Assembly (NCBI GenBank): GCA_036768485.1
Contig: JAVLUZ010000596.1
Span: 1 to 64,000 of the forward strand
From: Mermis nigrescens
Lineage: Eukaryota > Nematoda > Enoplea > Mermithida > Mermithidae
Reading direction: 5' to 3'
DNA length: 64,000 nucleotides
The notes beneath the pieces were generated by a model. That model did not search any database, was not told the DNA's origin, and saw only the letters and a list, made by a program, of their open reading frames with translations. A program made the position numbers and the translations under genes. Shown here piece by piece: positions 18,201-64,000 of the stretch (position 1 is the first letter of the stretch; the number at the start of each line of letters is the position of its first letter).

Positions 18201-21200
18201 ATCAGTTTTCCTCCAGAACAATATGGGAGGACAGGATGATATAATTTTCTTGGAGGCAAAATTTTGCATTTTATTAAACCTTCATAAGGTTGATTTTCCA
18301 GGGACACAGTTCCAAAATTTTCTGTTAAAATTTTAGGATGCCCAATTGGATATTTTCCATATTTGTTAATAAATGGGTAAAGTGAACAAATGTACACATA
18401 ATTTATCTTTTGCAACAAATTTCCATTTGCATCTTGTTAAATTTTGTGGTACAATTTAATTGCATTGGTTCTGCCGCCGTAAAATGCTAAAAAACGCTAA
18501 AATACTCAATGTACGGATACAATTATAAAATGCTAAATCTTTACCTCTAAAATATTTTTAAAACTATACTATTTTATTTTAAAGTTTTAAATAAATTTTG
18601 AAATATTTTTAAAATTATCTAATTCTAATTTTCAAATTATCACTTTACATAATGTTTACTATACAAAGTTTCAAATTTTCAAATAATTTGTGAATATTTT
18701 CAAAACTATCTACTTTTTTATATTCAAATTTTTAACTTCCTAAATAACTTTCGAAATATTTTTCAAATTATGTAAGTTTTTCTTATAGATATTCAAAAAA
18801 TTCTCAAAATTTAAGCCAATAGAAGAAATTTTCATCAAAAATTTGAAAGATAGCAGATCACAACTTACAAAATTACGCGTAAATACCTAATTCTTAACAT
18901 TTTTTATTGCATTGGGTAAGAAATTTTTAAAGTAGGCATGTTAAAATACCTTCGCGAGGATCCATTGGTGCTTCATTTGTGACCACACTGTCAAAAAACG
19001 CCCTCATGGTCAGATTGACCGTAAGCTGCTGATTCAGCTCACATTCCCAAATTTTGAAGAGCTTGTACCCGGCCTGCTGAATAAATTTAGCGTGCTCCAA
19101 TGTCCGATTGTAGGCTTTTTTGGCGGTAGAAGCCCTGTCAGCCCCCAGCTGGTTTCGCTTTGGCATGCATCTTGGACATCCATGCCAATGGCAACTGTAA
19201 AACTTGTACACAGTATCATTACAAAAACCATCTACTCGGTATTTTCCAATTTTCACTTCGTAACCATTATGCTTATGCAAAATATATTTATTTTCAATAT
19301 GACTGATCCATTTAATCCATTTTATAGCAATTATAGAGTGTTTTTTGTTCCTTCTGTACCCGTCATTTGGAACAATGCCTATAGTATTTGGCTTTCAAAA
19401 ATAATTTGCGAAAAACGGTATTACATGCACTAGCTATGGTTAATGAATGCTCAAATGGGTCTACCATAGTTTCGTCAATAAACATGTCTCTGAATTTAAG
19501 GCTGCATTGCCTCAAAACGGCAACGTCACTTTTGCAATAAGCCATAATTTTGCGCTTAAAGTTGAAAATCTGAAAAAAGTGCATAAAATATGGTTAAAAC
19601 TACAAATTTTATTTAAATTTCTAACTTTTCCCTTTTGCAACTTGTACCAATCTTGAAACGCTTGGTACTCATCCAGCTTCATGCTAGCTGGATTATAAAA
19701 GCTTTGGTTCGGGCCACTTACCAATGTAATCCCAATTGGCTTTTGTGTTAAATAAATGAGGAAAATACCCCTTGCATAATTTGTTAATGCCAAAGGTTTT
19801 TGGCAAATTTGCCAATTTCATTGGCAAAAAATTAAACAAATCAATAATTTTGACCATTTTATACAAAATTGTCATCAAAGCTAGCCCTAATTAATGAGAA
19901 AAAATAGAAACGTTAATGAAAAACATATTGCTTTTTCTTACCCTTGCTGATAATTTTTTGCACTTTGCCTTGTTTGTAAAAGAACTGTAAAATAAATTGT
20001 CCGTCGAAGCCTGTGGCGTTATGGGCGATTGCCATTACGTGCTTCATGCCAATCAAAAATGCACAAAACTCATCTACACAATTTTTTCCCAGAAAAATCC
20101 TTCTGTTTTGACCACAATGAAAACAGATTGATAATTCATTATGCCTACACTTGTCACAAACAATATGAGCCACACACAAATTTGGAACGTGTTCCAATTC
20201 AGGCCCATATGGTGTATCCCTCAAAACTTTTTCTTGGGTTGTTTCAAAGTCAAAAAACACAAAACGTTGGAGGAATGATTCTTTTTCAGACTTTTCCTCA
20301 TCAGGATTGTTGTAATTTTCTGCATCATCTTTTTTGCAGATCTTCTGCATATAACATAAATGCCCTGAAAAGTTTCAAAAATAAGTTGAAATCAAAAAAA
20401 ATTATACTTGAATTAATATAACCTTTTTGACGGACGTATTTCTTGCAAAGTCGGCAATCAAAATACCCGCATTTGTGTTTTTTCTTCCGGGCGTCCGTGA
20501 AATGCTTGCCGCATTTCGTGCAGCGTTAAATTTGTATGCAAATTGATGATTTGATCGTCTTATTTTTCCTCTTTAGTTTGTGAATTTGGCGATGATTTTT
20601 GAAACAACTTTGATTGTAAAAGTAACGATTGCACATTGAACACGTCAAAATTCTGGTTTTTGTGCAAGGCGGAGAATTATAACATGATGTGCACTTTTTG
20701 ATACATTGATGACGTTACTTATGACTACATGGTTTGTTACAAAGTTCGCAAAAATAATTGTTCTAGAAAAATACCAAAATTCTGCTAATAAGGTGTGATG
20801 ACCATCATGCAAATATAAGTGTAAAACCTTGTCGCACCTAATTGGACCTGTAAACATGCGATAATACTGCAAAGCATGGCACAAAAACAATGATTAAAAA
20901 TTTTTTTGATGTGTTGATAATTTTACAAAATTTGGTCTAAATCAAACAAGCAAATATAATGCAGGTACGTTTTTTGTAAGCAAACGACGCATTCCATACT
21001 GATTTTATATATTATAAAACCACAGGTATGTAATGAGCAAAATCCAAGAAACCAACTAAAAAAATTTAAATTACCAAACTCGAGACGCTAATTTAAATGT
21101 GCACTTCAGCACAACATACGTGTTTTACTGAAAAGTAAAGCGTAAAATGCAAAAGGTAGTAGAAGTCAAAAACAATTTATATAAATGACAGCATGCAAAA

Positions 21201-26700: not shown

Positions 26701-29700
26701 CATTGAATGCTTTGTACAGCTTAACACTTTGAATCATATTTGGAATTTATTGTGCAGATGACAAAATTTTGAAGCTCTCCTTGTAAAAACATGCATAGAA
26801 ACTTCTGAAAAGTTAAGATTTGTTGCTTAACATCAATCCATTCCCTGTGCAGTGCATACAAGTGTTCTGAGGTTTCAGCCCCATTGTTTTGTAGACAGTA
26901 ATCCGGATCATTTAGTCAAACAGCTTCCAGAACATCTAGAAAAATTTCAAAAGATGCAAAGTGTCATTCATTTATCAATATTTCAATATGTTTTTGATGC
27001 TCTTGATGTAGAAATAAGCATTAGTGAAACATATATCAAGGAGCAAGAAGCCAATGTTAGACGAGAAAAAGGCTTACTCAATAAATTTATTTGGACTAAA
27101 ACTAAGCTGCATAGATACTGCACACAACTTATGTGTCTCGATTTAATTTGGGAAAATATGATGTAAATTTAATTAAACGCAATCTATTTCCTGCTTTCAT
27201 TCAACAAGTGCGGATGACCCTAAAGACAATACATGGCCAAAAGCAATTTTACGAAATGGGTCAACACTTTGCTTATCCACTAGCATTTTTAAGTTTCTCG
27301 ATGTTAATACTTTTGTTGCACCTGGTTTCAATATAGAAGTGTTCATCAGAGCATACAAGGCGACAATATAAAAAGCCAAATTCCCTTATGAATATTTAGA
27401 TTCATTTAAAAAATTGTCTGAGACACAATTACCGCCTGCTGAAGCGTTCTACAGCTCAATTAAAGATGAATGCATCAGCACAGCTGATTATGCACAATGC
27501 CAGCAGTACTAACAATAATATAATATGACTACATTGAAGGCCTACCTAATTTTTTATAATATGAGCGATGTTGTACCATTCTTAGAAGCCTGTAGTAACA
27601 TGTTGCAGCTGTATTGGGACAGATTTAAGATTGATATTTTTAGAGAAGCAATGTCCTTACCCGCAACCACATAACAATATCTTTTCAAAAGCATACCTGA
27701 CACTAAATTATCATTTTTCTCGGAAAATTCAAAAAATGTCTACTATATGCTAAAATCGAGTATGTGTGGAGGTCTTTCAATGGTCATGACTCAATTAGCA
27801 ATTAAAGACCAAACATTTATCAGGAACAACCCATTAAAACCAGTAAAATCAGTAGTAGGCCTGGATTTTAATGCATTGTACTTATGGGCACAATCTAAAG
27901 ACATGCCTACCAATAAATACGACCATAGGTGGGCAGCACCAAAATTCTGGGGGGAGGGGGTGAAAAAATTTCTGGGGGGGGTGAAAAAATTTTTAAAGGT
28001 CAAAATGGCCTTAAAAATGGTGGTATGGCGAAAAAAACACCATTTTTCGACGTTTCTCATCAAGCTCTATCCAATGGCATCAAAAATTGCTAAAAAAGCA
28101 AAAAAAATTTTTCTGGGGGGAGGTATTTTGATTCTGGGGGGGGGGTATTTCAACTTCTGGGGGGATGCATACCCCCCAACCCCCACGCCCATGTGTGATT
28201 ACGACCACTGGATAATTGAGAGAAATAATAAATTCCACAAAAGTACCTCTTCTAGGCCTATTTCTTTTGAATACTTAGAAAGTGTGAGTGAAAAAATAGG
28301 TCATCATATTCAGCATTTAGGTAACAATAAGGAAAAAAGAATAGGACCCGCCTGCTTACCTGTTGATGGATTTTGCTCAGATACACATACAGTATATGAA
28401 TTTTACGGTTGCTATTATCACTGCCATATCTGCTTGGCAGGGCAAGGAAACAAGAAAAAGGATCCTGCAGATGATGGATTCAGACAAAAGAAGCCTACAT
28501 ACAATCACTGGGCTATAATGTAATTAGTATGTGGGAATGTGAAAGGCACTCTATTAGGAGGGAATATTTGAAAACTGTCTGCAAATTTTACTTCAAAGTC
28601 CGGATAAATGAAGCAGAAATGACCCAATCAGTCTTAGATGGGTCGGTTTTTGGCTTTGCTAAAGTAGATAATTCTACTCCTGAAAATTTGAAACCCTTAC
28701 TTGCCAATTTCCCGCCAATAATAAAATGTGCAGAAATTGGTAGGGAGGATATTGGCCCTCTGATGAAAGAGTATATAGAGAAAAATGGGCTACTTACAAA
28801 ACCTCAACATAATCATCTCAGTAGTTATTTCAGAAAGGAAATTAAATTCTGCTTTCCACAGAAATGATTAGATTTTTGGTCCAACATGGACTCATACTGG
28901 AGAAAGTTTATTAAGTTATTCAGTACGATTGATCAAAGCCATTTGAGAAATTTCGGGACACTGTCACCAAGCATAGACAAGAAGGTGATGAGGATACTGA
29001 ACTGGCCATGATCGCTTTTACTTTCAAACTATTGGGCAACACCGGATATGGCAAAACACTAACAAATAAAGAGCAGCACATAGATGTCTTTTAAGCCAAT
29101 TACAAAAAGCAGCTGAAGCAAGTCTTAGCCCATATATTAAGGAAGTTAAATTCATAAAAACGAACTGTTATGAAGTGCCTATGTTCAAGAAAGAAATTGT
29201 TTTAGATTTGCCTATAATAATAGGTCTATTGGTCTATAATTGGGCAAAAATTTGAATATTGGACTTCTTTTATGATGTGCTGTTGAAATATTTTGACATT
29301 TCAAATTATCAGTGTATGCAGACAGACACTAACAGCATATACTTGGCACTATCCAAAGAAAATTTGTTGGATTTAGTGAAGCCTGAAGTTAAGGAAGAGA
29401 TTGCAGAAATACATAAAAAGTGGTTTGTGACATCAAAAGCCACTAAACAAACTCCTGGTCTGCTGGAAGAGGAGTTTAATAGATTAGCCATGTGCTGTTT
29501 AGCCGCAAAAACATACATTGCTGTTGACAACTTGACAGGAAATATCAAAGTCAGCAGTAAAGGATTAATGAAAAAATGAATCGGCTAACTTTTGATCAGT
29601 ATACTAATGTGTTGGATACTCAAACAGCACATGTGTGAAAAAAATATTGGATTCAGGATGCAACCTGATAATCAGATGTAGATGTACATTCAAGAGAAAC

Positions 29701-44631: not shown

Positions 44632-45448
44632 GGCCTGACCCCAGAATTCCCATGCTGTGCATTTGATGCTTTTTAGCATTATCTTGTTGATGCTTTCATT
44701 TATTTAATTATTCATTCTTTTGATCAGGTGAATCTTTTGAATCACTTCATTTATAATTTTGCATTGGGTTGTCGACATTGTCAGAAGCAATCCCTGAAGT
44801 TTGTATGGCAATTCACGATGTTTTGAAAGATTCTTATATGAAGTGTCCACAGAATCCCAACAATTGGTTGAAAATTGCGATACAATTTGAGAAATTATGG
44901 CAACTTCCCAATCTATGTGGTGCTGTTGATGGCAAACACGTAAAAATATTGCCACTTGTTGGTGCTGGATCACATTACTTCAACTACAAGGGGTTTCATA
45001 GCTTAGTTTTGATGGCAGTAGTCGATGCGGATTTGCGTTTCACTTATGTGGATGTTGGAACAAACGGAAGGGTCAGTGATGGAGGAGTTTGGGCGGACTG
45101 TACTTTAAAGAAACAACTAAAAACTGGTACAATGGGGCTACCAAACCCTTCTCCTATCATTGGAAATGGATTGCCAATGCCCTATGTTTTTGTAGGTATT
45201 GAAGCATTTGCGCTTAAAACTTATATGATGCATCCTTACCCAGGCCAAGAGCTGAATGAGAGCACGGCAAACTTCCAAAAATGCATTTGGAATTTTGTGC
45301 GCTAGATTCAGAATTTTTTTACATGCCCATTATGTTAAAACCTGAAAAGGTAATTGCATTTGTAAAAGCAGTGACTGTTCTGCATAATTTCCTTTGTGAT
45401 GGGAAAGACACCCGCTTAGCTTATACACCTGATTCTGCACTTGAATGA

Positions 45449-54551: not shown

Positions 54552-54868
54552 TAAGTAGTTATGCCTGGCTCCCTGGTGGCAATGCTATAACATATACGAT
54601 AGTTAAGGATAAGCAATGTTATAAGATAGGCTAATGCTATAACATATACAATGGTTAAGCATAGATGAGGGGTGGAACCTTGTGCCCTAGGGTAGGGGCC
54701 AGGGCGCTATGCTATAACATATACAATGGTTAATGATAGGCGATTCTTAAGGATAGAAAAAGCTATAACATATACAACGGTTAAGGATAGGCAATGGTTA
54801 AGCATTAGCTAATGCTATGAGATATACAGTGGTTAAGCATAGGCAAGAGGAAGGAACCTTGCACCCTG
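54552..54868 (+). repeat. Polinton-like terminus with tandem CTATAACATATACAATGG units
   Basis: AGTAAGTAGTTATGCCTGG at 54550 resembles the starts at 8138 and 10495. It is followed by about five units of ATGCTATAACATATACAATGGTTAAGCATAG type (54590-54845), two of them trailed by GGAACCTTGYRCCCT. The second such trail is cut by the LTR at 54869. Possibly the left end of another Polinton extending beyond the retrotransposon. Confidence 0.4.
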
Positions 54869-55918
54869 TGTCAAGACGAAACCCAATCTGTACAGTTTCT
54901 TCTTATTTTTGTCTATCACTTTAAACTTGTCATTATCTAAATATGTTAACTCCGCGAGTCATTTATAACTACATATATAGTATGTAAGATGAAACCAATA
55001 CTGTATTTCAGCGTGATCGAGTTATAATGCGTTAGGACCGTAGATTGTATGTATGTTTCGCGTTTTTGCTAAAAGTAAGCATGGCCATGCGGAGAAAAGC
55101 GGTGACTTAAAAGAAGAAAGGCGAAATTGAATACATGGTAAAAATATTCGAATGGTAGACATGAAGACTCCGAAGAAGGGATTAAAACGAAGTTCCAGAC
55201 ACAACACCAAAGTTGATTTAAGTGATATAAAAGCCAGACAGAGTGGCTGGGAGTCAAAACCAAACCGAGTCTGAATCCGCGCAGCAAATACTAATTTATA
55301 AAAATAATGTATCAATTAGCATTGTGAAATATGCTAAGGAATAGGAATGATTTAACACATAACTATGCAACAATCCCTTTAAGCGTAGCAATACGCGCAA
55401 TAATGAGATTGATACAAAAAGCGGCGAGTCTAAAAGAGCTGCACAAAATATAGCGGATGCGGGAGGTTAAAAGAGGTTAAAAGGTCACAATTCAAGTCAA
55501 AACAACACCCATAAAATACAAGCGGATCCTGTGAAAAATATATCACTAGCCAGAGTAAGCAAAGCCTGTTCTGCTCCGACCCGTCAGGATTAAGCTTAAC
55601 TTTAATCCTTTTGCCTGCTAGACTGCATGACTCCAAAAAAAGTATAAAACTTGGATTAGAGCGGCAAAAGGGCTCAGTATCTCTTGGAGTCGTCGTCTAA
55701 TTAGCAACGCCTTTCGCCGATTTCCTTCGCATTACGGCCAGCAATTTTATTCGATTATATATATTTCGTCTTTGTTTTGGACCCTCAGCGATCCATTGTA
55801 AGTAAAATTAAATAACTTACTTTATTCGAAATTAGAGATCACCCCAACCCTTAGGCCATTCACCTAAAGCATCTTTTAATATCATAAGAGTAAAGCGTTG
55901 CGTTTCCCGAACCTGACA
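54869..55918 (+). repeat. 5' LTR
   Basis: Starts TGTCAAGACG and ends CCTGACA, giving TG...CA with a TGTCA/TGACA inverted end, five bases before the primer-binding site. Contains a TATA box and initiator. The second LTR is outside the window, so the 1,050-bp length is inferred from these ends. Confidence 0.65.
55643..55678 (+). promoter_or_regulatory. LTR core promoter (TATA plus arthropod-type initiator)
   Basis: TATAAAA at 55643-55649 and TCAGT at 55674-55678, placing the A of the initiator 33 bases after the start of the TATA box. TCAGT is the arthropod initiator consensus. This would make U3 about 800 bp and leave about 240 bp of R-U5. Confidence 0.6.
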
Positions 55919-55923
55919 TAATT

Positions 55924-55942
55924 TGGCGCAGAAAGTAGGATC
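55924..55942 (+). other. Primer-binding site
   Basis: TGGCGCAGAAAGTAGGATC begins with the TGG expected opposite a tRNA CCA end and resembles the tRNA-Ser type sites of some insect gypsy elements. The exact tRNA is not established. Confidence 0.6.
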
Positions 55943-56127
55943 CGCCCCTCTGTTGGAAATTCGCCTTTCTAGCGTTTACGAAAACTTTCTTTCCGAATCC
56001 GTTAAAATATTTTGATCCCCTCTCATCTCACGATTTAGAAAGGAACGTCCTGAAAAATCTAAAGACTATTTAATATTTTGAAATTAATTTAAATCACGAA
56101 CAGCAAATTGATTCTTTCCTTGAAGAA

Positions 56128-56293
56128 TTATTTTTCTGTTTCTCGAGGTACTCAAGAGCTGGAATATTGTTCTGGTAGTCCAGTGAAAGAACAGAAAAAC
56201 CTTTTGGCTATTATTTTTCTGATTCCGGAGGTACTCAGGCGCTGAAATATTGTTCCAGTAGTCCAGTGAAAGGTCAGGAAGAAAATAGCTAAA
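56128..56293 (+). repeat. 83-bp tandem duplication in the retrotransposon leader
   Basis: Two adjacent diverged copies (56128-56210, 56211-56293) share TTATTTTTCTG, GAGGTACTCA, CTGGTAGTCCAGTGAAAG-type words. A second pair, AAAGAGGCGTGGAAAAGCCG and AAAGAGGCGTGAAATAGCCG, lies at about 56659 and 56729. The 5' leader between PBS and gag (55943-56935) has no long frame; packaging or translation signals could lie here. Confidence 0.55.
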
Positions 56294-57298
56294 AATTTGC
56301 TGATTTTCTGTGAAGTGATCAAGCTGTGATAAACCAGCCCCTGAATCACTAAAATCAAGATATTTTGAGCTCGGTCAAGCTGCGAAAATCTCTGAAATAA
56401 TAGGGAAACGCGCAGTTTTACCAAAATCAGTGTTTTTCAACATATTTAAGGAGGTTAAGCTGCGGTGAATCTCTAACTGGGTGAAGCGCAGCCTCTAAGC
56501 ACTTAAATAGAAAAACTGAGGATAACATATTTAATTCACACGTGTAAGCTTTTGAGATTGGGTAACTGTGGAAATCATCTCATAGGATTAAGTTGCCTTC
56601 GAGCCCAGCTTTAAGCGCCCTAAAAATCTCCAAGTTTTCGCGTTTGAATAATTAAAAGCGAAAAGAGGCGTGGAAAAGCCGATAAATTCGGATAAAGCAC
56701 GACCCTTAAATTAAAGTTAAAATTATTAAAGAGGCGTGAAATAGCCGATAAATAAATTGACCTTTAAAATTCATTTTTCTTCTGACCCTTTTACGTGATT
56801 TCGGCCAGAAGGTGCGCACAATTTTCCTACTGAATTCGTCCGGCCGGCGTTTTCAGCAATCCATTTTCCAACGTTCCAATAAATAATTAAAGTGTTTTCG
56901 GAGAGAAGGAAAAAAATCAAAAATTAAAGCTTTAAAATACGGATTCTAGTTCAGAAAGTTCCAACGAAGCAGTAAGCACGCAAAAAAGTGCTGAAAATTC
57001 TGAAATTTCTGATACTGAGTTTCAAAGTACTCTTGAGGCTCATCAGAGATTTTTATACTCAGTTCCCACCGAGACACCCGAAAAAATTCTCGAAGCTCAT
57101 CAAACATTTCTTAACGCGCTGTTTGAGAGTGAAATAGGACACCCAGCAGGCCAGAGTACCCCAACAAATCAATACTCTAATTTGAGTGCAAATATTTCGG
57201 AACTGGTGCGAAGAAGGGAACCTGTATTTTCCAAACCGGATATTCCATTAATTAAAAGATTTTTGGTTGAAAGATCGGAAAGACCTTTTACGAGAAAA

Positions 57299-59449
57299 AT
57301 GGCGAATGACAGTCAACAATTAGAAGACGCTTTCAGACGTGCTTTTGAAGTTTATGGCGCCCCATTAAACCAACAAATGAGAGAACTTAGGGACGTTGTA
57401 GAGCAAGGGAGTTTCGCTGCTCCAGCCACAGCAGGGGACCCTCTTCTACGGCTAGGTGCTTTAATGAATGCGAAATCGCCTAAGCCATTTTCCGGCGCTT
57501 TTGGAGAATCTTTTGGGGAATGGTTTAAACAGTTTCAAAAATCTTTGGTTTTACAAGGTGTTTCGAATGCCGATGATACTTATAAAATAGCATTTTTAGA
57601 GTCAAATTTTACCGCGACTGCTCTAGCTACTCTAACGGATATCATAAAAAGTCTTCAAAGTCCTAATTTTGATGATATCGTATACGAGCTCAAGCAGGCC
57701 TTCCCAGAGGGACGGGACTCTGATATTTATCAGGGGTTAATTTATGACGCGACTCAAAAGAGAACTGAAGCCGTCCTGGAATTTTCTGAAAGATTAAAAA
57801 AGCTTGCTAAATCAGCTTATCCCCAACTTTCAGAAGGAGACCGGGAATCCATCATAAAGCCTATATTTATACGAGGGCTTTTACCTAAAATTTATCAGGG
57901 GTTAAAATATCAGGAAACTGAATGCTTAAAAGATGCTATTAAAATGGCTGTTTACACTGAGCAGCAAGTTTTTCGTGAGCAAATACAGAATTACCCTACC
58001 TGTTCGGAATCTGCAGGTAAATCTAATTTGTCCGTTTTACCCTCAGCAGAAATGGACCAATCGATGCAGGAAATTCGTGCCTTGGTTGCCGAAACACGTC
58101 AACAGCAAGGCGCGAGAAATTGCATAAACTGCGGCGGTGGTGGTCATTGGGCGGCCGACTGTTATTTCGCCGTCGGAGGCCGTCGCGCTGCTGGAAATCG
58201 CAATAGGCCAGCCGTAGAGGGTAATAATAATTTTAATTCCAATAATTATCGCGGACGACCCTTAAACAACAATAATTCAAGCTACGATATGAATTATAAC
58301 AGACGGAATTTCAACCAAAATTCAAATTTTGGAAATAACAATTACAACAGAAGAGATTTAAATGGAAATTCAAACTTTAGGAATAATGTTAGACGAGAAA
58401 TTCAACTCGGAAATGGAAGAAATTTTGGATATGGTAATTCTCACGAAAATTTAAATAGACGTGATCCCTTGAACCGCCAGGGTAATCAAGGTTTAAGCGG
58501 GCAGAGATCGGAGGTGCGAAGCCCCAGGCCACGTTCTCGAACCCCCGAACTGTATGAAAATAATGGAAGAAGGGTTCAATTTTCGGATAATTCAAGAAGA
58601 TCGACAAATAATAATATTTCGAGCGAAAATTTAGAATTTCAGAAATCTGAGCAATGTGAACTTTTGGACATAGAAGATGAGGGACTGATCCCCCAGACCC
58701 CTAACTGTGGGCGAATTAACTTAAATGTCGCTTCAAACACAGGCCTGGCAAACGTTTTCGGCGGCAATGGTTTTGATTTACCGCCAGATTTTTACACGGA
58801 AGCGGCGCTCGAGGATATAAGGTACCTCTTCGAGCCGCCTGAACCCCAGGTCGGAGCGGCTTGGTCGTCATCGGACGACGAAAGCGACGAGTCCGATACG
58901 GACTACGCTGCTTTAGAAGCGGCTAATTTGGAGCGATACTACCAGCAATGGCGGGCCGAACACCAGTTTTTCTGGTATTATCGGGGACAGCTAGTCCCTT
59001 TCGCCAATTTCCCATGGGGACACCCCGCGAATGTGCTTAATGAGCTAGGATCGGAGTCTGAAAACGACACTTTTTCAGCGCCGACCAGCCGCCCCCCAAC
59101 ACCACGCAATCATCACCGCCACGCCCGCGGTCAACGTAATCAACGCCGCCAGACCCACGGCCAACGCAATTATCGTCGTCAGACCCGCGGCCAACGCAAT
59201 CATCGTCAACAGGCTCGAGGCCAACGCAATCATCGTCACCCCCGACGTGGCGCTGTTTGTGGGCGGTGCCCACTGCACTGCCACCAAGCAAACACGACAC
59301 CACAGGGCCCACCTGCAACCCCTCGCAGCCCGCCAACTGCCACACAGGATGCGCTCATTTCGCCCCCACTTTCGAACGACTTATCGCAGCCTGGAATAGC
59401 GGAGCCGAATGTCCGCCCTGCTTACGTCCGATGGGGACGTTACTCGGGT
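57299..59449 (+). other. Gag-like segment of the polyprotein
   Basis: N-terminal retrotransposon gag-type region: FSGAFGESFGEWFKQF, FLESNFTATALATL and VLEFSERLKKLAKSAYP show the capsid-like helical gag core (retrotrans_gag type) over residues about 60-200. A perfect C-x2-C-x4-H-x4-C zinc knuckle begins at 58121 (residues 275-288), for RNA binding. Then an Asn/Arg-rich stretch (residues about 300-440), an acidic stretch (WSSSDDESDESDTDY, about 521-535) and the Arg-rich decapeptide repeats. No protease lies directly behind it. Confidence 0.75.
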
Positions 59450-62400
59450 GAGAATATTTATCCAAACTGTATTTTCGTATTTTATTACTATATATATTAT
59501 TTCCTATTAAATGCGGAAACTTTGCTTAATCTAAATTACCTTTTTGCTATCGATTGTATTATTTATAGAAATACATGCACTCATATAAATTATTCCAACC
59601 TTTTTTTATATTTCACAAAATTTTTGCTCATTTTAAACAGTTGTCGATATCGGTCCAAAGGAAATAGTTGGAAAGCAAGCATTTTGAGCCAAAAATGGGC
59701 TATATACTATTTGGAGCCGATTTTGAAGATCTTAAGCATTTTAATTATACTCATTCTTAACTATAAATTAAATCTTACACAGTTTTCAGTGTGCATGCCA
59801 TTGTTTGTTTCCGTGTTAGTAGATTTTTGTGCATCTGCAGTTTATTTGCGTGTGATTAAGTTGCAAGATGAGAAAATTAGACGAAAAGATGAAAAATCAG
59901 TTGAGGCAAAACAGAACCAATATTTGTTGCCTCAATGGTGGTTTAGAACAAGCTTTGAGGATACAAGTTTCCATATTAATATTCAAAAAATCACTTCGAA
60001 TCTTGACCATTACGTCTTTTATAAGTTTTTGATCGGAAATAAACGAAGATTCACTGAAAAAGGCCGAATTTTCGATATTACCACTTCTTACAAACTCGCG
60101 ACCGAAAACAGGCAAAAACATATACAAAGTCTAAGTAATTTTGTTGTTTATAAATACCGAATCGCCTACAGGCAGAAAATTGTGAGTAGTCAAACTTTTG
60201 CCGATGTTGTTCCGGAAATTAATCAATTTTTTGGTTCAACAAAAAGGAGCTACCTTAAATGCCTTTTGGAAAATAAAGCGATGTTGCAAGAGAGTAACTG
60301 TGGAAACTTACATAAAACTCAATTTCGAGTGATGTCCGCTTTGCAGACGTATCCGAGTTTGAACCAGTCGAGGACGGCGGCGTTGGTGAACTCATGTTCA
60401 TTAACCTCGTCGAGTGCGACGACAACGTCATCCCAGCCGACCTCATCGATTTTGATGATGGGCCTGCGGCTAACGACTGCAATGAAACTCAGACCGAAAA
60501 GGCAGTCAATGTTTGAAAAGCTGTTTACTGCTTTGTACTTAAAATTTATTATTATGTACGATTATTCGAGCAATGCATTATTTAAGTTATTTAAAATTTT
60601 GCCTTTACTTTTAAAAGTATTTAATTTAGCAGAATTATCCTTACTTAGCGTGTACGTTATATTTAAAATATACTTTGCGTTTTACGTTTTTACTTTTCAT
60701 AAACGATTATCTATGCTCCATACTTTTAATTTATTTAAATTGTTGACGATATGCGATATTACATTTATTCTCATCCGCTCTTATTTATTTTATATTTATC
60801 GCGTTGCACTTAAATTACTTTATTCTGAACATGTACAACAAAGTAAAGTACTCGAAAATTCCAAAACAAATCAGAACTCTTTAATGAGGACGTTTTTTGT
60901 GATTTTCGTGCTTGCGAGTTTCATGAAAAGTGCCATGGGAGGCCGGGAGTTTCAAATTTGCGGGACAAGCCGCAGTGGACACCCCGTAAATTTGCCCCGC
61001 ACAGTACAGTGTGTTTTACCGGGAGGAGAACTACCGAGGCCGGAAAAACAAAATGTCACGATTTTTGTTCCAAGAATCGAGCCCAAAAGCGTTTTTGCTA
61101 TAAAATGCATGAAAATCTCTAGAGTGGTGTGTACCAACACCGGGTTTTTTGGCTCAAAAGGTATAATTTCAGATAAAACTGAAAGTGAGCCAGTTTCTTA
61201 TGAAACCTGCAAAAATTCGTATGACAATAGAGAATTTCAAGGAACCCCTTTAAAACAGGATAAAAGTGGATTTTTAACAACTGACCTAAAATTTGAATTT
61301 CAGTTTTCTTGGTGCTGCCGAGACGTATGCACATCGGTTACCAATTTTGTCATAGAAGAAGGTCAAGTTGCTAGCTGGACTGGATTGAGTATTATTTCAG
61401 ACTTGGGGGATGTAAGCTTGTGCCACCCTACCTATGGGAAATGCAAAAATTTAGAAAGCACTTTCCTCTGGTATGGCGGATTTTTCCAAGAAATTTGTCC
61501 CTTTATCCCCCGAGGCACTTTCCCCGCCTTGATTAGCGATAGGTACGTCGTTATAGACGACCTGCAGGCGGCTTTTCTGATAAAAGAGAAGTACAAAAAA
61601 TGTCACGAAATACGAAACGCTTTTATCTCAGAGCAGGGAGTTGTGGTAGGATTTAAGTCCGACCGAGAGATAGGCGCTTTACCCAATCATAAATTAGATG
61701 CGCCAAAAATCATCAAAATCGCGAAAGAAAAACTTGACCCTGTGAATTTAAAGCTAAATTACCTCGAAATCCGAATTTTTCAGGAAGAAATTTCGAGCTT
61801 TCGGAGAATTTGGTTAGAACTTTGTCACCAACTTCAACGAAGTTTAGATGTTATTTGGCAACTTCTTTATTTGGATCCCACTATTGGTGCCCGAGCATTT
61901 TTCCAAAGGACTGATTTAGTGGCAGACTTCACCGGCGACGCCCTAACAATTTGGAGCTGTCGGAAAGTCAATGTTTCTAAAGTTCATACCGATCATAAAA
62001 TAAACGGTACCTGCTATAAGTACTTACCTGTAGAGTACAATAAAGAAATGTGGTTCGTCCTTCCTGGGAGCAAGGATTTAGTGCATTTTTCGGAAACGAT
62101 TAATTGCTTACATAAAAAGATCGCAATTTTTCGAGATAAAAATAAATGGGTTACAGAACATGGCTTAATTCATGTTTCAGAGGTACCATTAGAGCTAAAC
62201 TGGAAAGAAAATTTTAGCCTATTCCAGTTTAATACGCCAGTAGTCTTCCACGACCATTTAGCGGCTGGTGAACCAACTTTCGGGCTTTTTCGGAATTATC
62301 TCTATAAAACCGAAAGATTAGAAAAAACATTGCATCGACTATTAGACTACACATCGGAAATGTCATTGCAACCAAGTGTAATTCGCGAAACACTAATAGG

Positions 62401-64000
62401 GGCCGGAACAGAGGTCAAGACTGTGGTCCAAAGTGCCGAAAATGCGATGGAAAAACTAATTACTGCAAGTCAAAATAGTTTTTCCACTAATTTCAATTCT
62501 TTATTAAAAGGACCAGTGCAATTGTTAATAAACTTTTTAATAATTGTATTAATTCTCGCAATCATTGCCTATTTTGCTTATTTATATATAAGTCAAAAAC
62601 GCTCTGCAACAATGTATGCGTCTCCCAACGTTTCAACATCTACCCCCAGTGGATTAGGCGAAGCATTAAGGCGCATTATAAAACCACAGCGAATATTATT
62701 GCCACTTAAGCAGGGCCGACGAAAAGTCACTTGGACAAGGACTTCCGGAGCACCCGGAGAATCCTCGGCCAGCATATTAACTGTGGCAACAGCGAGTAAA
62801 ACACATGAATACACATTGCAAGTCAACGTAATATTAAATGACGAAATAGTAGTCTTAGCAATGTTAGACACGGGAGCCGTCTATTCCCTATTAGATCTAA
62901 AAATTGCAAACAAATTGCCAAATTTGCGAGTGTATAAAAGTTCTATTCGCCCAATAGCAGCAAATGGAGGTGAAATAGAGATTTTAGGGTCAACAGTAAT
63001 AACAGTTTCAGCTTACGATGTGAAAGAAACAATTTTAGTCCACATTCAAAAAGATTGTGCTGCAGAATTACTCTTAGGCTCAAATTTTCTGTCTAGATTC
63101 AAAAACATTAACCTTAGTCTGGAAAAATCTACTATAAAACTTCGAGATGTTACAATGCCGTATCAAGGAATCACCTACCGCCCACCAGAGACGAGAAGCA
63201 CAATAGTGCTCGAATCTGATGAGACTATTTCATCTCGATCAGTTCAAACAATAATGGCAAGAACACCAAACAATTATCGGCCTGGGACTCAAGTTGTGTT
63301 CGACCCAAAAAACAGCCAATACGACGATAATGTTTATTATGCGCATTCTATCTGCACTGTGCTAGAGAATGGTACAATACCCATCCAGGCCTTGAACCCT
63401 AATACATATAATGTCAAGTTATATGCAAACACGCGGTTAGGAACAATAAACACGTATTTAGAGAATGTAGTAAATGTAGTGCAAGATCAAGGAAATACAG
63501 CAACGAATGCTGTGATAGGCAGTAACGTGGACAAATTTAGGCGATGGATCGAATATAATGCCGATGTTTCGCCATTGTTAAATAAAACTGAGCAGGCTGA
63601 AATAATAAATCTGCTCTCTAAATATCCAAATCTGTACGCTCTTGATGATATGGACTCTGGGAAAACAGATTTAGTCAGACATGCAATAGATACGGATAAA
63701 AATTTACCTGTCCATAAACACCCTTATCGTACTTCACCTGCAGAGAAAGAAATCATTATAAGGGAAATAAGAGCACTAGAAAATAAAGACATAATTCGAC
63801 CCAGCGTTTCACCCTGGTCGACAAATATCGTTTTAGTACGGAAAAAGGATGGAAAGCACCGAATGTGTATAGATTTTAGGGGCGTGAACAATATTACCAA
63901 GAAAAACGTATATCCATTACCTCGGATAGACGATATTCTAGACACCCTAAATGGAATGAAGTATTTTACAACACTCGACCAAGCTAATGCATATCACTCA
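57299..64000 (+). CDS. Gag-Env-Pro-Pol single open reading frame (incomplete at 3' end)
   Basis: One frame of 2,234 codons from the first in-frame ATG (57299) to the window end, without a stop. The frame is open further upstream to 56936, so a non-AUG or spliced start is possible. Order: gag-like (residues 1 to about 717), hydrophobic linker (about 718-1195), envelope-like glycoprotein (about 1196-1767), protease with DTGA (Asp at residue 1857), reverse transcriptase with KKDGKHRMCIDFRGVN (from 2182) and YPLPRIDD (2205). I followed the frame line by line from 58900 to 62880 and confirmed phase at the knuckle, ectodomain, DTGA and RT motifs. Typical gypsy elements have gag and pol in adjacent or overlapping frames, and env, when present, after pol in its own ORF. 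Here env precedes pro. Expression could be as one membrane-spanning polyprotein or through spliced RNAs. Confidence 0.85.
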   Translation, partial: MANDSQQLEDAFRRAFEVYGAPLNQQMRELRDVVEQGSFAAPATAGDPLLRLGALMNAKSPKPFSGAFGESFGEWFKQFQKSLVLQGVSNADDTYKIAFLESNFTATALATLTDIIKSLQSPNFDDIVYELKQAFPEGRDSDIYQGLIYDATQKRTEAVLEFSERLKKLAKSAYPQLSEGDRESIIKPIFIRGLLPKIYQGLKYQETECLKDAIKMAVYTEQQVFREQIQNYPTCSESAGKSNLSVLPSAEMDQSMQEIRALVAETRQQQGARNCINCGGGGHWAADCYFAVGGRRAAGNRNRPAVEGNNNFNSNNYRGRPLNNNNSSYDMNYNRRNFNQNSNFGNNNYNRRDLNGNSNFRNNVRREIQLGNGRNFGYGNSHENLNRRDPLNRQGNQGLSGQRSEVRSPRPRSRTPELYENNGRRVQFSDNSRRSTNNNISSENLEFQKSEQCELLDIEDEGLIPQTPNCGRINLNVASNTGLANVFGGNGFDLPPDFYTEAALEDIRYLFEPPEPQVGAAWSSSDDESDESDTDYAALEAANLERYYQQWRAEHQFFWYYRGQLVPFANFPWGHPANVLNELGSESENDTFSAPTSRPPTPRNHHRHARGQRNQRRQTHGQRNYRRQTRGQRNHRQQARGQRNHRHPRRGAVCGRCPLHCHQANTTPQGPPATPRSPPTATQDALISPPLSNDLSQPGIAEPNVRPAYVRWGRYSGENIYPNCIFVFYYYIYYFLLNAETLLNLNYLFAIDCIIYRNTCTHINYSNLFLYFTKFLLILNSCRYRSKGNSWKASILSQKWAIYYLEPILKILSILIILILNYKLNLTQFSVCMPLFVSVLVDFCASAVYLRVIKLQDEKIRRKDEKSVEAKQNQYLLPQWWFRTSFEDTSFHINIQKITSNLDHYVFYKFLIGNKRRFTEKGRIFDITTSYKLATENRQKHIQSLSNFVVYKYRIAYRQKIVSSQTFADVVPEINQFFGSTKRSYLKCLLENKAMLQESNCGNLHKTQFRVMSALQTYPSLNQSRTAALVNSCSLTSSSATTTSSQPTSSILMMGLRLTTAMKLRPKRQSMFEKLFTALYLKFIIMYDYSSNALFKLFKILPLLLKVFNLAELSLLSVYVIFKIYFAFYVFTFHKRLSMLHTFNLFKLLTICDITFILIRSYLFYIYRVALKLLYSEHVQQSKVLENSKTNQNSLMRTFFVIFVLASFMKSAMGGREFQICGTSRSGHPVNLPRTVQCVLPGGELPRPEKQNVTIFVPRIEPKSVFAIKCMKISRVVCTNTGFFGSKGIISDKTESEPVSYETCKNSYDNREFQGTPLKQDKSGFLTTDLKFEFQFSWCCRDVCTSVTNFVIEEGQVASWTGLSIISDLGDVSLCHPTYGKCKNLESTFLWYGGFFQEICPFIPRGTFPALISDRYVVIDDLQAAFLIKEKYKKCHEIRNAFISEQGVVVGFKSDREIGALPNHKLDAPKIIKIAKEKLDPVNLKLNYLEIRIFQEEISSFRRIWLELCHQLQRSLDVIWQLLYLDPTIGARAFFQRTDLVADFTGDALTIWSCRKVNVSKVHTDHKINGTCYKYLPVEYNKEMWFVLPGSKDLVHFSETINCLHKKIAIFRDKNKWVTEHGLIHVSEVPLELNWKENFSLFQFNTPVVFHDHLAAGEPTFGLFRNYLYKTERLEKTLHRLLDYTSEMSLQPSVIRETLIGAGTEVKTVVQSAENAMEKLITASQNSFSTNFNSLLKGPVQLLINFLIIVLILAIIAYFAYLYISQKRSATMYASPNVSTSTPSGLGEALRRIIKPQRILLPLKQGRRKVTWTRTSGAPGESSASILTVATASKTHEYTLQVNVILNDEIVVLAMLDTGAVYSLLDLKIANKLPNLRVYKSSIRPIAANGGEIEILGSTVITVSAYDVKETILVHIQKDCAAELLLGSNFLSRFKNINLSLEKSTIKLRDVTMPYQGITYRPPETRSTIVLESDETISSRSVQTIMARTPNNYRPGTQVVFDPKNSQYDDNVYYAHSICTVLENGTIPIQALNPNTYNVKLYANTRLGTINTYLENVVNVVQDQGNTATNAVIGSNVDKFRRWIEYNADVSPLLNKTEQAEIINLLSKYPNLYALDDMDSGKTDLVRHAIDTDKNLPVHKHPYRTSPAEKEIIIREIRALENKDIIRPSVSPWSTNIVLVRKKDGKHRMCIDFRGVNNITKKNVYPLPRIDDILDTLNGMKYFTTLDQANAYHS
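59110..59250 (+). repeat. 30-bp tandem coding repeat (RGQRNxRRQT)
   Basis: Four and a half in-frame copies of a decapeptide of the form RGQRN-x-RRQT, rich in Arg, Gln, Asn and His (residues about 604-651). Likely nucleic-acid-binding or self-associating. Both strands are open across this segment, a side effect of codon choice (CAACGCAATCATCGT). Confidence 0.7.
59450..60883 (+). other. Hydrophobic linker between gag and envelope-like parts
   Basis: About 478 codons, AT-rich, with no stop in the gag frame. Strongly hydrophobic segments at residues about 724-757, 812-850 and 1078-1178 look membrane-spanning. Between them is a basic, aromatic domain (QWWFRTSF, YKFLIGNKRRF, FVVYKYRIAYRQK). 60316-60516 has a second open frame. 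A GTGAGA donor-like site lies at the start (59450). No family rec­ognised. It could be a multi-pass membrane domain, or partly an intron kept in frame. Confidence 0.5.
60316..60516 (+). other. Overlapping alternative-frame acidic segment
   Basis: In the frame one base ahead of the polyprotein, 60316-60513 is open for 66 codons and encodes a strongly acidic peptide (DVRFADVSEFEPVEDGG, ECDDNVIPADLIDFDD), closed by TGA at 60514. Its codons show a clear purine-N-pyrimidine pattern, whereas the polyprotein frame reads as a Ser/Thr low-complexity run here. This suggests the alternative frame is, or was, translated, perhaps through a spliced message. Confidence 0.4.
60884..62599 (+). other. Envelope-like glycoprotein segment
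   Basis: Begins at an internal ATG (60884) with a textbook signal peptide (basic start, FFVIFVLASF core, small residues before the likely cleavage site at about residue 1214). An ectodomain of about 520 residues follows with about 16 cysteines, including a CC pair, and several N-glycosylation sequons. Then comes a helix-prone amphipathic stretch and a membrane anchor LLINFLIIVLILAIIAYFAY (residues 1742-1761) with a short basic tail. This is the architecture of a type I viral fusion or envelope protein. I do not recognise the specific family, and no furin site or fusion peptide was assigned. It continues without a stop into the protease. Confidence 0.65.
62600..64000 (+). other. Protease and reverse transcriptase segment (pol, incomplete)
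   Basis: Retroviral-type aspartic protease: VVLAMLDTGAVYSLLD with the catalytic Asp at 62867, then the flap region and the ELLLGSNFLSRF block (about 63067) that precedes the protease C-terminus. The RT begins with a DLVRHAIDT ... PYRTSPAEKEII lead-in (63671-63750), IIRPSVSPWSTNIVLVRKKDGK (63791), CIDFRGVNNIT and YPLPRIDDILD, then the start of motif A (FTTLDQANAYH) at the window end. The RT type is Ty3/gypsy. The catalytic YxDD, RNase H and integrase lie beyond the edge. Confidence 0.9.

Follow-up and report, generated by a model that had tools for sequence, protein, structure and literature searches.

Layout of the element

We analyzed a 64,000-nt window of the genome of the nematode Mermis nigrescens (assembly GCA_036768485.1, contig JAVLUZ010000596.1, forward strand; C550:1-64000 in our searches of the assembly, which has 523,963,438 bases in 860 contigs). 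The right-hand end of the window holds a long terminal repeat (LTR) retrotransposon that runs past position 64000 and in which an envelope-type glycoprotein (GP) is encoded between gag and protease (PR). From the first ATG, at 57299, the plus strand can be translated up to 64000 for 2,234 codons without a stop, in the order gag, signal peptide, GP, membrane anchor, PR, and reverse transcriptase (RT). An earlier note on this DNA, made from the window alone (the original prediction), had described this frame and its parts, and ORF translation, Pfam matches, hydropathy, and alignment bear it out. The note also took the element to start at 57299, which is not so, as the 5' LTR begins at 54868. The features of the element are listed here; L and C numbers are our handles for sequences of the assembly.

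54868-55918, + strand: 5' LTR, 1051 bp, TGTCA...TGACA
55643-55648, + strand: TATA-like box in the LTR, with a presumed promoter role
55919-57298, + strand: leader, 1380 nt, zero ATG
56936-57298, + strand: open in-frame extension before the first ATG, with a protein that by eye looks like the corresponding part of L011
57299-58162, + strand: gag, with a capsid-like domain (57530-57964) and one CCHC zinc knuckle (58118-58162)
58163-60883, + strand: linker of ~907 codons, stop-free
60884-60940, + strand: internal signal peptide, an aligned hydrophobic stretch before the GP N terminus, with the cleavage site placed by eye
60941-62521, + strand: GP ectodomain, with the Monjiviricetes_fusion core at 61742-62206
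~62522-62590, + strand: GP membrane anchor, of strong hydropathy, followed by a short tail to ~62815
62816-63160 (ends approximate), + strand: aspartic protease, with LDTGA at 62864 and a PF13975 match at 62825-63097
63482-64000, + strand: N-terminal part of a Ty3-like reverse transcriptase, continuing past the window
C550:66512-67562, + strand: 3' LTR, beyond the window; marks the element end at C550:67562

The two LTRs are 99.81% identical (2 mismatches in 1051 bp), and CCTG flanks the element on both sides. TG...CA ends (TGTCA...TGACA) and a short target duplication are as in Ty3/gypsy elements (Metaviridae). The frame that begins at 57299 stays open beyond the window to a stop at 64838, and upstream of this ATG in-frame codons are open back to a stop at 56933. 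The original prediction called the frame intact, which stands as far as 64838 and does not stand for pol. A frame change disrupts pol within RNase H (RH), and RH and integrase (IN) are in another frame (C550:64728-66494, or L009:728-2494). The last integrase codon is at C550:66494, and the 3' LTR starts 18 nt further. Therefore, no second env lies downstream of pol in this copy.

In gag, Pfam finds Ty3_capsid (E = 1.9e-5; 24.6 bits, under the cut-off of 29.1) and, weakly and also under the curated cut-off, the CCHC zinc knuckle. The gag-asp protease match (E = 4.8e-6, 27.5 bits) is just under its cut-off of 28.2. RVT_1 is matched over its initial part (E = 6.1e-5), as the window ends within the domain. 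The solved structures nearest to the window RT are 4ol8 (E = 1e-16; named RT/RNase H), which we take to be Ty3, and 7q5b, Ty3-G Gag-Pol (E = 5.6e-16). By these matches, the RT is closest to Ty3-type RTs. A putative primer-binding site presumably lies at the start of the leader. Neither Rfam nor a tRNA scan gave any match in the window.

The window GP matched the Pfam family Monjiviricetes_fusion (PF24664) with an E value of 2.7e-14 (52.5 bits, above the cut-off of 27). In an alignment of 11 genomic representatives and the partial database protein P0002, 44 columns are invariant, nine of them cysteines, and identity to the window GP is 32 to 53% across the rows (42% for P0002). At E ≤ 0.01, Monjiviricetes_fusion matched 12 of the 12 aligned GPs, BDV_G matched 7, and Glycoprotein_B matched 6. 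A profile made from them (A1) matched envelope glycoprotein B entry 5cxf in the Protein Data Bank (PDB; E = 1.7e-5), presumably gB of human cytomegalovirus, and a PDB search with the window GP alone gave no match. This sequence-profile relation to gB is that of class III, and the profile matches place the GP among fusion proteins of the Monjiviricetes/gB type (class III). No baculovirus-F family was among the Pfam matches of the window frame and the aligned GPs. Protein database searches returned only P0002 and P0003 as related proteins, the latter from the mermithid Romanomermis culicivorax, and no viral GP. Two scans of viral contigs found no relative. At the hydropathy threshold used, 7 of 9 chains have a hydrophobic segment right before the GP N terminus and a second one 543 to 556 residues on. 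L010, L012, and L019 have exactly those two segments, and the other four of the seven have one extra elsewhere.

Occurrence of the arrangement in the assembly

The original prediction set an env between gag and protease against the usual position after pol, and the mid-frame position recurs in diverged families. The Monjiviricetes_fusion profile matched the assembly at no fewer than 68 places (at least 68; 775 candidates, 68 scored) and 0 of 14 control genomes. The window GP matched at least 82 places (2161 candidates, 82 scored), 27 of which have an open frame of 2000 aa or more. We fetched 19 of the 68 profile-matched places, every one with a frame of at least 1,024 aa, and these copies form eight nucleotide groups besides the window's own. 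Probes from the window matched GP in 19 of 19 copies, gag in 17 (not L017 and L018), and protease in 10. The RT probe matched on the right strand in 16, not at all in L022 and L024, and on the opposite strand in L026. Wherever the window pieces match, the order is gag-GP-PR-RT. The gag match and the GP share one open frame in 13 of the 19 (L010-L016, L019-L023, and L025), and the L017 frame extends over a zinc knuckle. In L024, L026, L027, and L028, breaks separate the parts. Many diverged families of the assembly share the gag-env-PR-RT order in one frame.

In L011 (frame to 9717) and L014 (frame to 9777), PF24664, protease, RVT_1, RNase H, H2C2, and rve matches are all in one frame. By sequence, these two copies are gag-GP-PR-RT-RH-IN in one frame with gag-like N termini. 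Their pol order, PR-RT-RH-IN, is that of Ty3/gypsy elements, which the window copy has with the frame change in RH. The gag piece of L011 has a weak Pfam match to PNMA only, and the gag call rests on 48% identity to the window gag. Upstream of its 5' LTR, L014 also has a second, broken GP-like fragment (L014:176-597) in two frames.

We then compared the genomic positions of GP and RT matches, using 150 scored RT matches of 2782 candidates; duplicate haplotigs inflate these co-location counts. Among the 150 listed RT matches, 63 have a listed GP 940 to 1585 bp upstream on the same strand. The downstream test covered the other 87, which have no GP within 8 kb downstream among the matches listed. 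Four of the 87 were inspected, and all four had an unlisted GP upstream in a stop-free frame. Conversely, a listed RT is downstream of 53 of the 82 listed GP matches, 29 have no listed RT, and none has an RT only upstream. The same open-frame length is reported for both members of 35 GP-RT pairs, and it is at least 2000 aa in 23 of them.

The original prediction proposed looking for a second env before the 3' LTR. We sought 3' ends in six other families, two of which (L012 and L015) yielded no LTR pair. The distance from the pol stop to the 3' LTR is 315 nt in L014, 272 nt in L017, and <290 nt in L011, and the L010 frame enters the LTR. Neither the window copy nor any of these four families has an env behind pol. 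An env downstream of pol, which we take to be the general layout habit of Metaviridae and not a trait that defines them, is not what these elements have; theirs is between gag and PR.

Recent activity, also predicted, is supported by the LTR identity and by near-identical copies elsewhere in unrelated flanks. Independent insertion is shown for three copies, those of the window, C55, and C52. The stretches of C66, C332, and C162 where an LTR would be expected hold no match to it. The AT-rich part of the window linker (59453-60880) is matched at full length in six places, the window itself being one, and all six are copies of the window family.

Some further observations concern this family. Short, weaker DNA matches to the AT-rich linker part occur elsewhere. 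In the C66 copy (L034), internal sequence (L029) matches the window at 99.99% identity, and the 5' end is truncated or rearranged. L037 and L038, upstream of decayed window-family copies in C332 and C162, look identical as printed, and their element-side end has a GP-like stretch by eye. L032 and L033 give equal match figures and, with the likeness of L037 and L038, are probably duplicated haplotigs.

Selection, descent, and proposed expression of the joined frame

To follow selection along the frame, we calculated the ratio of nonsynonymous to synonymous substitution rates (dN/dS) for its separate parts. For L014 and L027 (75.5% nucleotide identity), it was 0.07 in gag, 0.26 in the linker, 0.12 in GP, 0.17 in the tail, 0.11 in PR-RT, and 0.06 in RH-IN; the linker value comes from 295 of 380 codons, and with dS at 1.0 to 2.7 this pair's values are rough. 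Several dS values in the pair comparisons were saturated. The linker values of other pairs were 0.28 for L010-L026 (dS 0.57), 0.40 for L010-L024 (dS 0.23), and 0.37 for L016-L028 (dS 1.2). For L010-L026 and L010-L024, respectively, GP gave 0.30 (21 changes) and 0.46 (8 changes), PR-RT gave 0.28 and 0.31 (120 of 404 codons), and RH-IN gave 0.98 and 0.84 (123 codons). Between the window and the decayed copy L032, gag gave 0.27 and the anchor-tail part gave 0.32. The separate analysis of the env-like part that had been proposed for this element therefore finds GP under purifying selection, with dN/dS at 0.12 to 0.46, and the linker frame is under purifying selection as well.

The window linker, from zinc finger to signal peptide, has 0 stops in frame where 48 would be expected, and the two remaining plus frames hold 43 and 71. 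Across 907 codons this excludes chance for the gag-GP join. None of nine linkers, from the window and eight other copies, contains a stop in the gag-GP frame (9.1 to 48 expected per frame), and 2000 simulations for each yielded no stop-free sequence. Stop-free linkers are our strongest evidence that ribosomes read on from gag across the linker to GP. With the dN/dS values, they support the predicted selection for the arrangement.

GP and RT trees were made for the same ten elements, neither tree being rooted (L021 was left out, its RT being frame-broken). All four supported (starred) RT splits recur as starred splits in the GP tree: window with L011; L014 with L027; those four plus L010; and L012 with L016 and L028. 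A fifth starred GP split (L016 with L028) is left open by RT, and L019 is placed differently, on unsupported branches. GP and RT are co-inherited, and the simplest reading is one capture, followed by joint descent of the two.

The leaders are nearly free of ATG: none in the window (25.3 expected by shuffling), none in L014 (8.7 expected), and one in L011 (18.0 expected). The L017 leader is uninformative, with only 63 nt and 1 ATG against 1.5 expected. In the window, the final ATG within the LTR (55627) precedes the TATA-like box. Leaders of this kind fit cap-dependent scanning of unspliced RNA to gag. Gag may also start upstream of 57299, from a non-AUG codon or a spliced exon in 56936-57298.

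Our best explanation of these results as a whole, to which we give a probability of about 0.68, is that a Ty3/gypsy lineage captured a class III (Monjiviricetes/chuvirus-like) fusion GP, which became fixed in the same frame after gag and before protease, giving one threaded polyprotein. The window element would be a recently inserted copy of this large, old Ty3/gypsy-type LTR lineage. Genomic RNA would be scanned from the cap through the AUG-less leader and translated as a single gag-GP-pol chain. The internal signal peptide would start translocation, signal peptidase would free the GP N terminus, and the GP anchor would halt transfer through the endoplasmic reticulum (ER) membrane. Gag, tethered through the signal peptide at its C terminus, and PR-RT-RH-IN, tethered through the GP tail, would then lie on the cytosolic side of the same membrane until PR separates the parts during budding. 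Flavivirus and pestivirus polyproteins likewise join a cytosolic capsid to a glycoprotein via an internal signal peptide (capsid-prM in flaviviruses). They differ in being unrelated viruses with no reverse transcriptase, and the analogy is one of mechanism only. A tentative extension, with the odds somewhat against it, is that these are enveloped reverse-transcribing elements with a mode of assembly that is not known from retroviruses: gag and pol would be the two cytosolic ends of one chain crossing the ER membrane, signal peptide and tail would anchor shell and enzymes, and each particle would start with Gag, Env, and Pol in equal amounts.

Several points weigh against this explanation. Translation of gag-GP-pol as one chain is something that we infer from sequence, and the window copy, with its disrupted pol, is defective. 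The protease probe was silent in 9 of the 19 copies, where PR is assumed from the gap between GP and RT. In the window family, a 1-nt length change splits the linker frame of L031, and L032 and L033 are decayed. Constraint between the window and L032 is weak in the zinc-knuckle tail (dN/dS 0.77) and the AT-rich linker (0.52), and their GP (0.37) is less constrained than PR-RT (0.12). No part of the L011 linker aligns with that of the window. Changes are too few in L019-L023, which is uninformative, and in the L010-L026 tail (1.02 on 4 changes). The copies used in the linker test had been selected for open frames, which weakens that test, most for short linkers. As to the GP, its fold is unconfirmed, AlphaFold models having a mean pLDDT of 33.7 (three rows: window, P0002, and P0003). 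The signal peptides of the window and L017 are under the hydropathy threshold, and five extra hydrophobic stretches in the AT-rich linker part would complicate the topology.

The same element and order might be expressed in split form by splicing. GP would come from a spliced message, or it would be an in-frame retained intron removed for gag-pol, and unspliced RNA would serve mainly as genome. Gag must usually exceed Env and Pol, which counts for such a scheme. P0003 points the same way, with gag joined straight to GP and without linker and signal peptide, although we take it for an automatic gene model. In the passages compared here from published work, Cer1, a nematode Ty3/gypsy element, has no gag-pol stop and yet a spliced message (PMC10309623), and distinct RNA pools are described for BARE despite its single frame (PMC3735527). 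However, introns would not stay stop-free, and 9 of 9 linkers are (in copies chosen for open frames). Linker dN/dS is 0.26 to 0.40 in four pairs, and by eye L016 and L017 have no Met close before the signal peptide. A small scan of the window leader found no GT[AG]AGT donor. We consider split expression unlikely, if well worth keeping in view. The linker as an intron was judged unlikely from stop counts and dN/dS; the splice-site scan covered the leader only.

GP might also be a passenger or have acquired a non-entry role for host or element, such as interference with related viruses. Solo chuvirus glycoproteins in mosquitoes have been suggested to be domesticated (PMC7642597). The conserved cysteines, signal peptide, and anchor in GPs of the 11 genomic representatives argue against this, as do GP dN/dS values, which are close to those of PR-RT in three pairs and above them in a fourth, and a listed RT just downstream of 53 of the 82 listed GP matches, with an only-upstream RT for none. 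This makes such a role improbable. Finally, a chance fusion or assembly artefact in the window copy is refuted by the other copies: even if single-base errors are likely in places in an assembly from polished nanopore and linked reads (PMC10989877), the order recurs in eight nucleotide-distinct groups besides the window's and at dozens of loci, and near-identical copies sit in unrelated flanks.

Elsewhere in the window, Pfam places a DDE superfamily endonuclease (DDE_Tnp_4) fragment at 44757-45302. We take this fragment to be from a Harbinger-like DNA transposon. ORF pieces at 18927-20374 (- strand) and 27675-28867 (+ strand) resemble a Polinton/Maverick-type DNA polymerase by eye; Pfam gave no match for 18927-19394, 19913-20374, and 27675-28520.

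Relation to known elements

Env capture turns retrotransposons into retroviruses. The general view is that elements acquire env at the 3' end and express it separately from gag and pol. Errantiviruses and env-bearing Metaviridae share Ty3/gypsy-type pol, LTRs, and an env gene with the Mermis element. Their env is a separate frame downstream of pol. It is likely to come from a baculovirus (PMC12440569). The Mermis element has no such separate, downstream, baculovirus-F-type env. In the passages compared, Cer1 of Caenorhabditis elegans is similar as a nematode Ty3/gypsy element with no stop between gag and pol, and it differs as an LTR retrotransposon, a class said to lack Env, that makes a spliced RNA-export protein, CERV (PMC10309623).

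Also close are Atlas virus and its relatives (Belpaoviridae; Ancylostoma ceylanicum), nematode endogenous retroelements with a captured RNA virus glycoprotein in one polyprotein. Atlas virus has a stop-free polyprotein of 2828 residues and identical LTRs (PMC9094657). In contrast to our element, it is described as Gag-Pol-Env, with a C-terminal, phlebovirus Gc-like class II glycoprotein and a BEL/Pao RT (PMC9094657). The window element has neither the C-terminal env nor the BEL/Pao RT. Anakin, from mosquitoes, carries a captured chuvirus glycoprotein, and its donors and those of our GP belong to one broad negative-strand RNA virus group, but its backbone is BEL/Pao (PMC7642597). Endogenous Jingchuvirales glycoproteins include chuvirus-type insertions in arthropods and two in Nematoda, with Gypsy fragments beside many, and two cases are inside complete transposon boundaries, one of them in Bemisia tabaci (PMC10084718). 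The nematode insertions differ from ours in being described as flanked by simple repeats, and for the glycoproteins surveyed no clear evidence of Gypsy or Copia capture is reported (PMC10084718). As far as the passages compared go, the Mermis lineage would be the first chuvirus-like fusogen capture by Ty3/gypsy (PMC10084718). We found no env between gag and protease or pol in the literature passages compared, including those from PMC10309623, PMC2577118, PMC8556966, and PMC5408684, with subscription journals thinly covered.

A whole lineage that has fixed env in the middle of its frame, under selection, offers a natural experiment on the co-delivery of Gag, Env, and Pol to the membrane. The lineage would have, or would have had until recently, the capacity to exit cells as an enveloped nematode retroelement, and it might be a source of gene flow in an insect-parasitic nematode.
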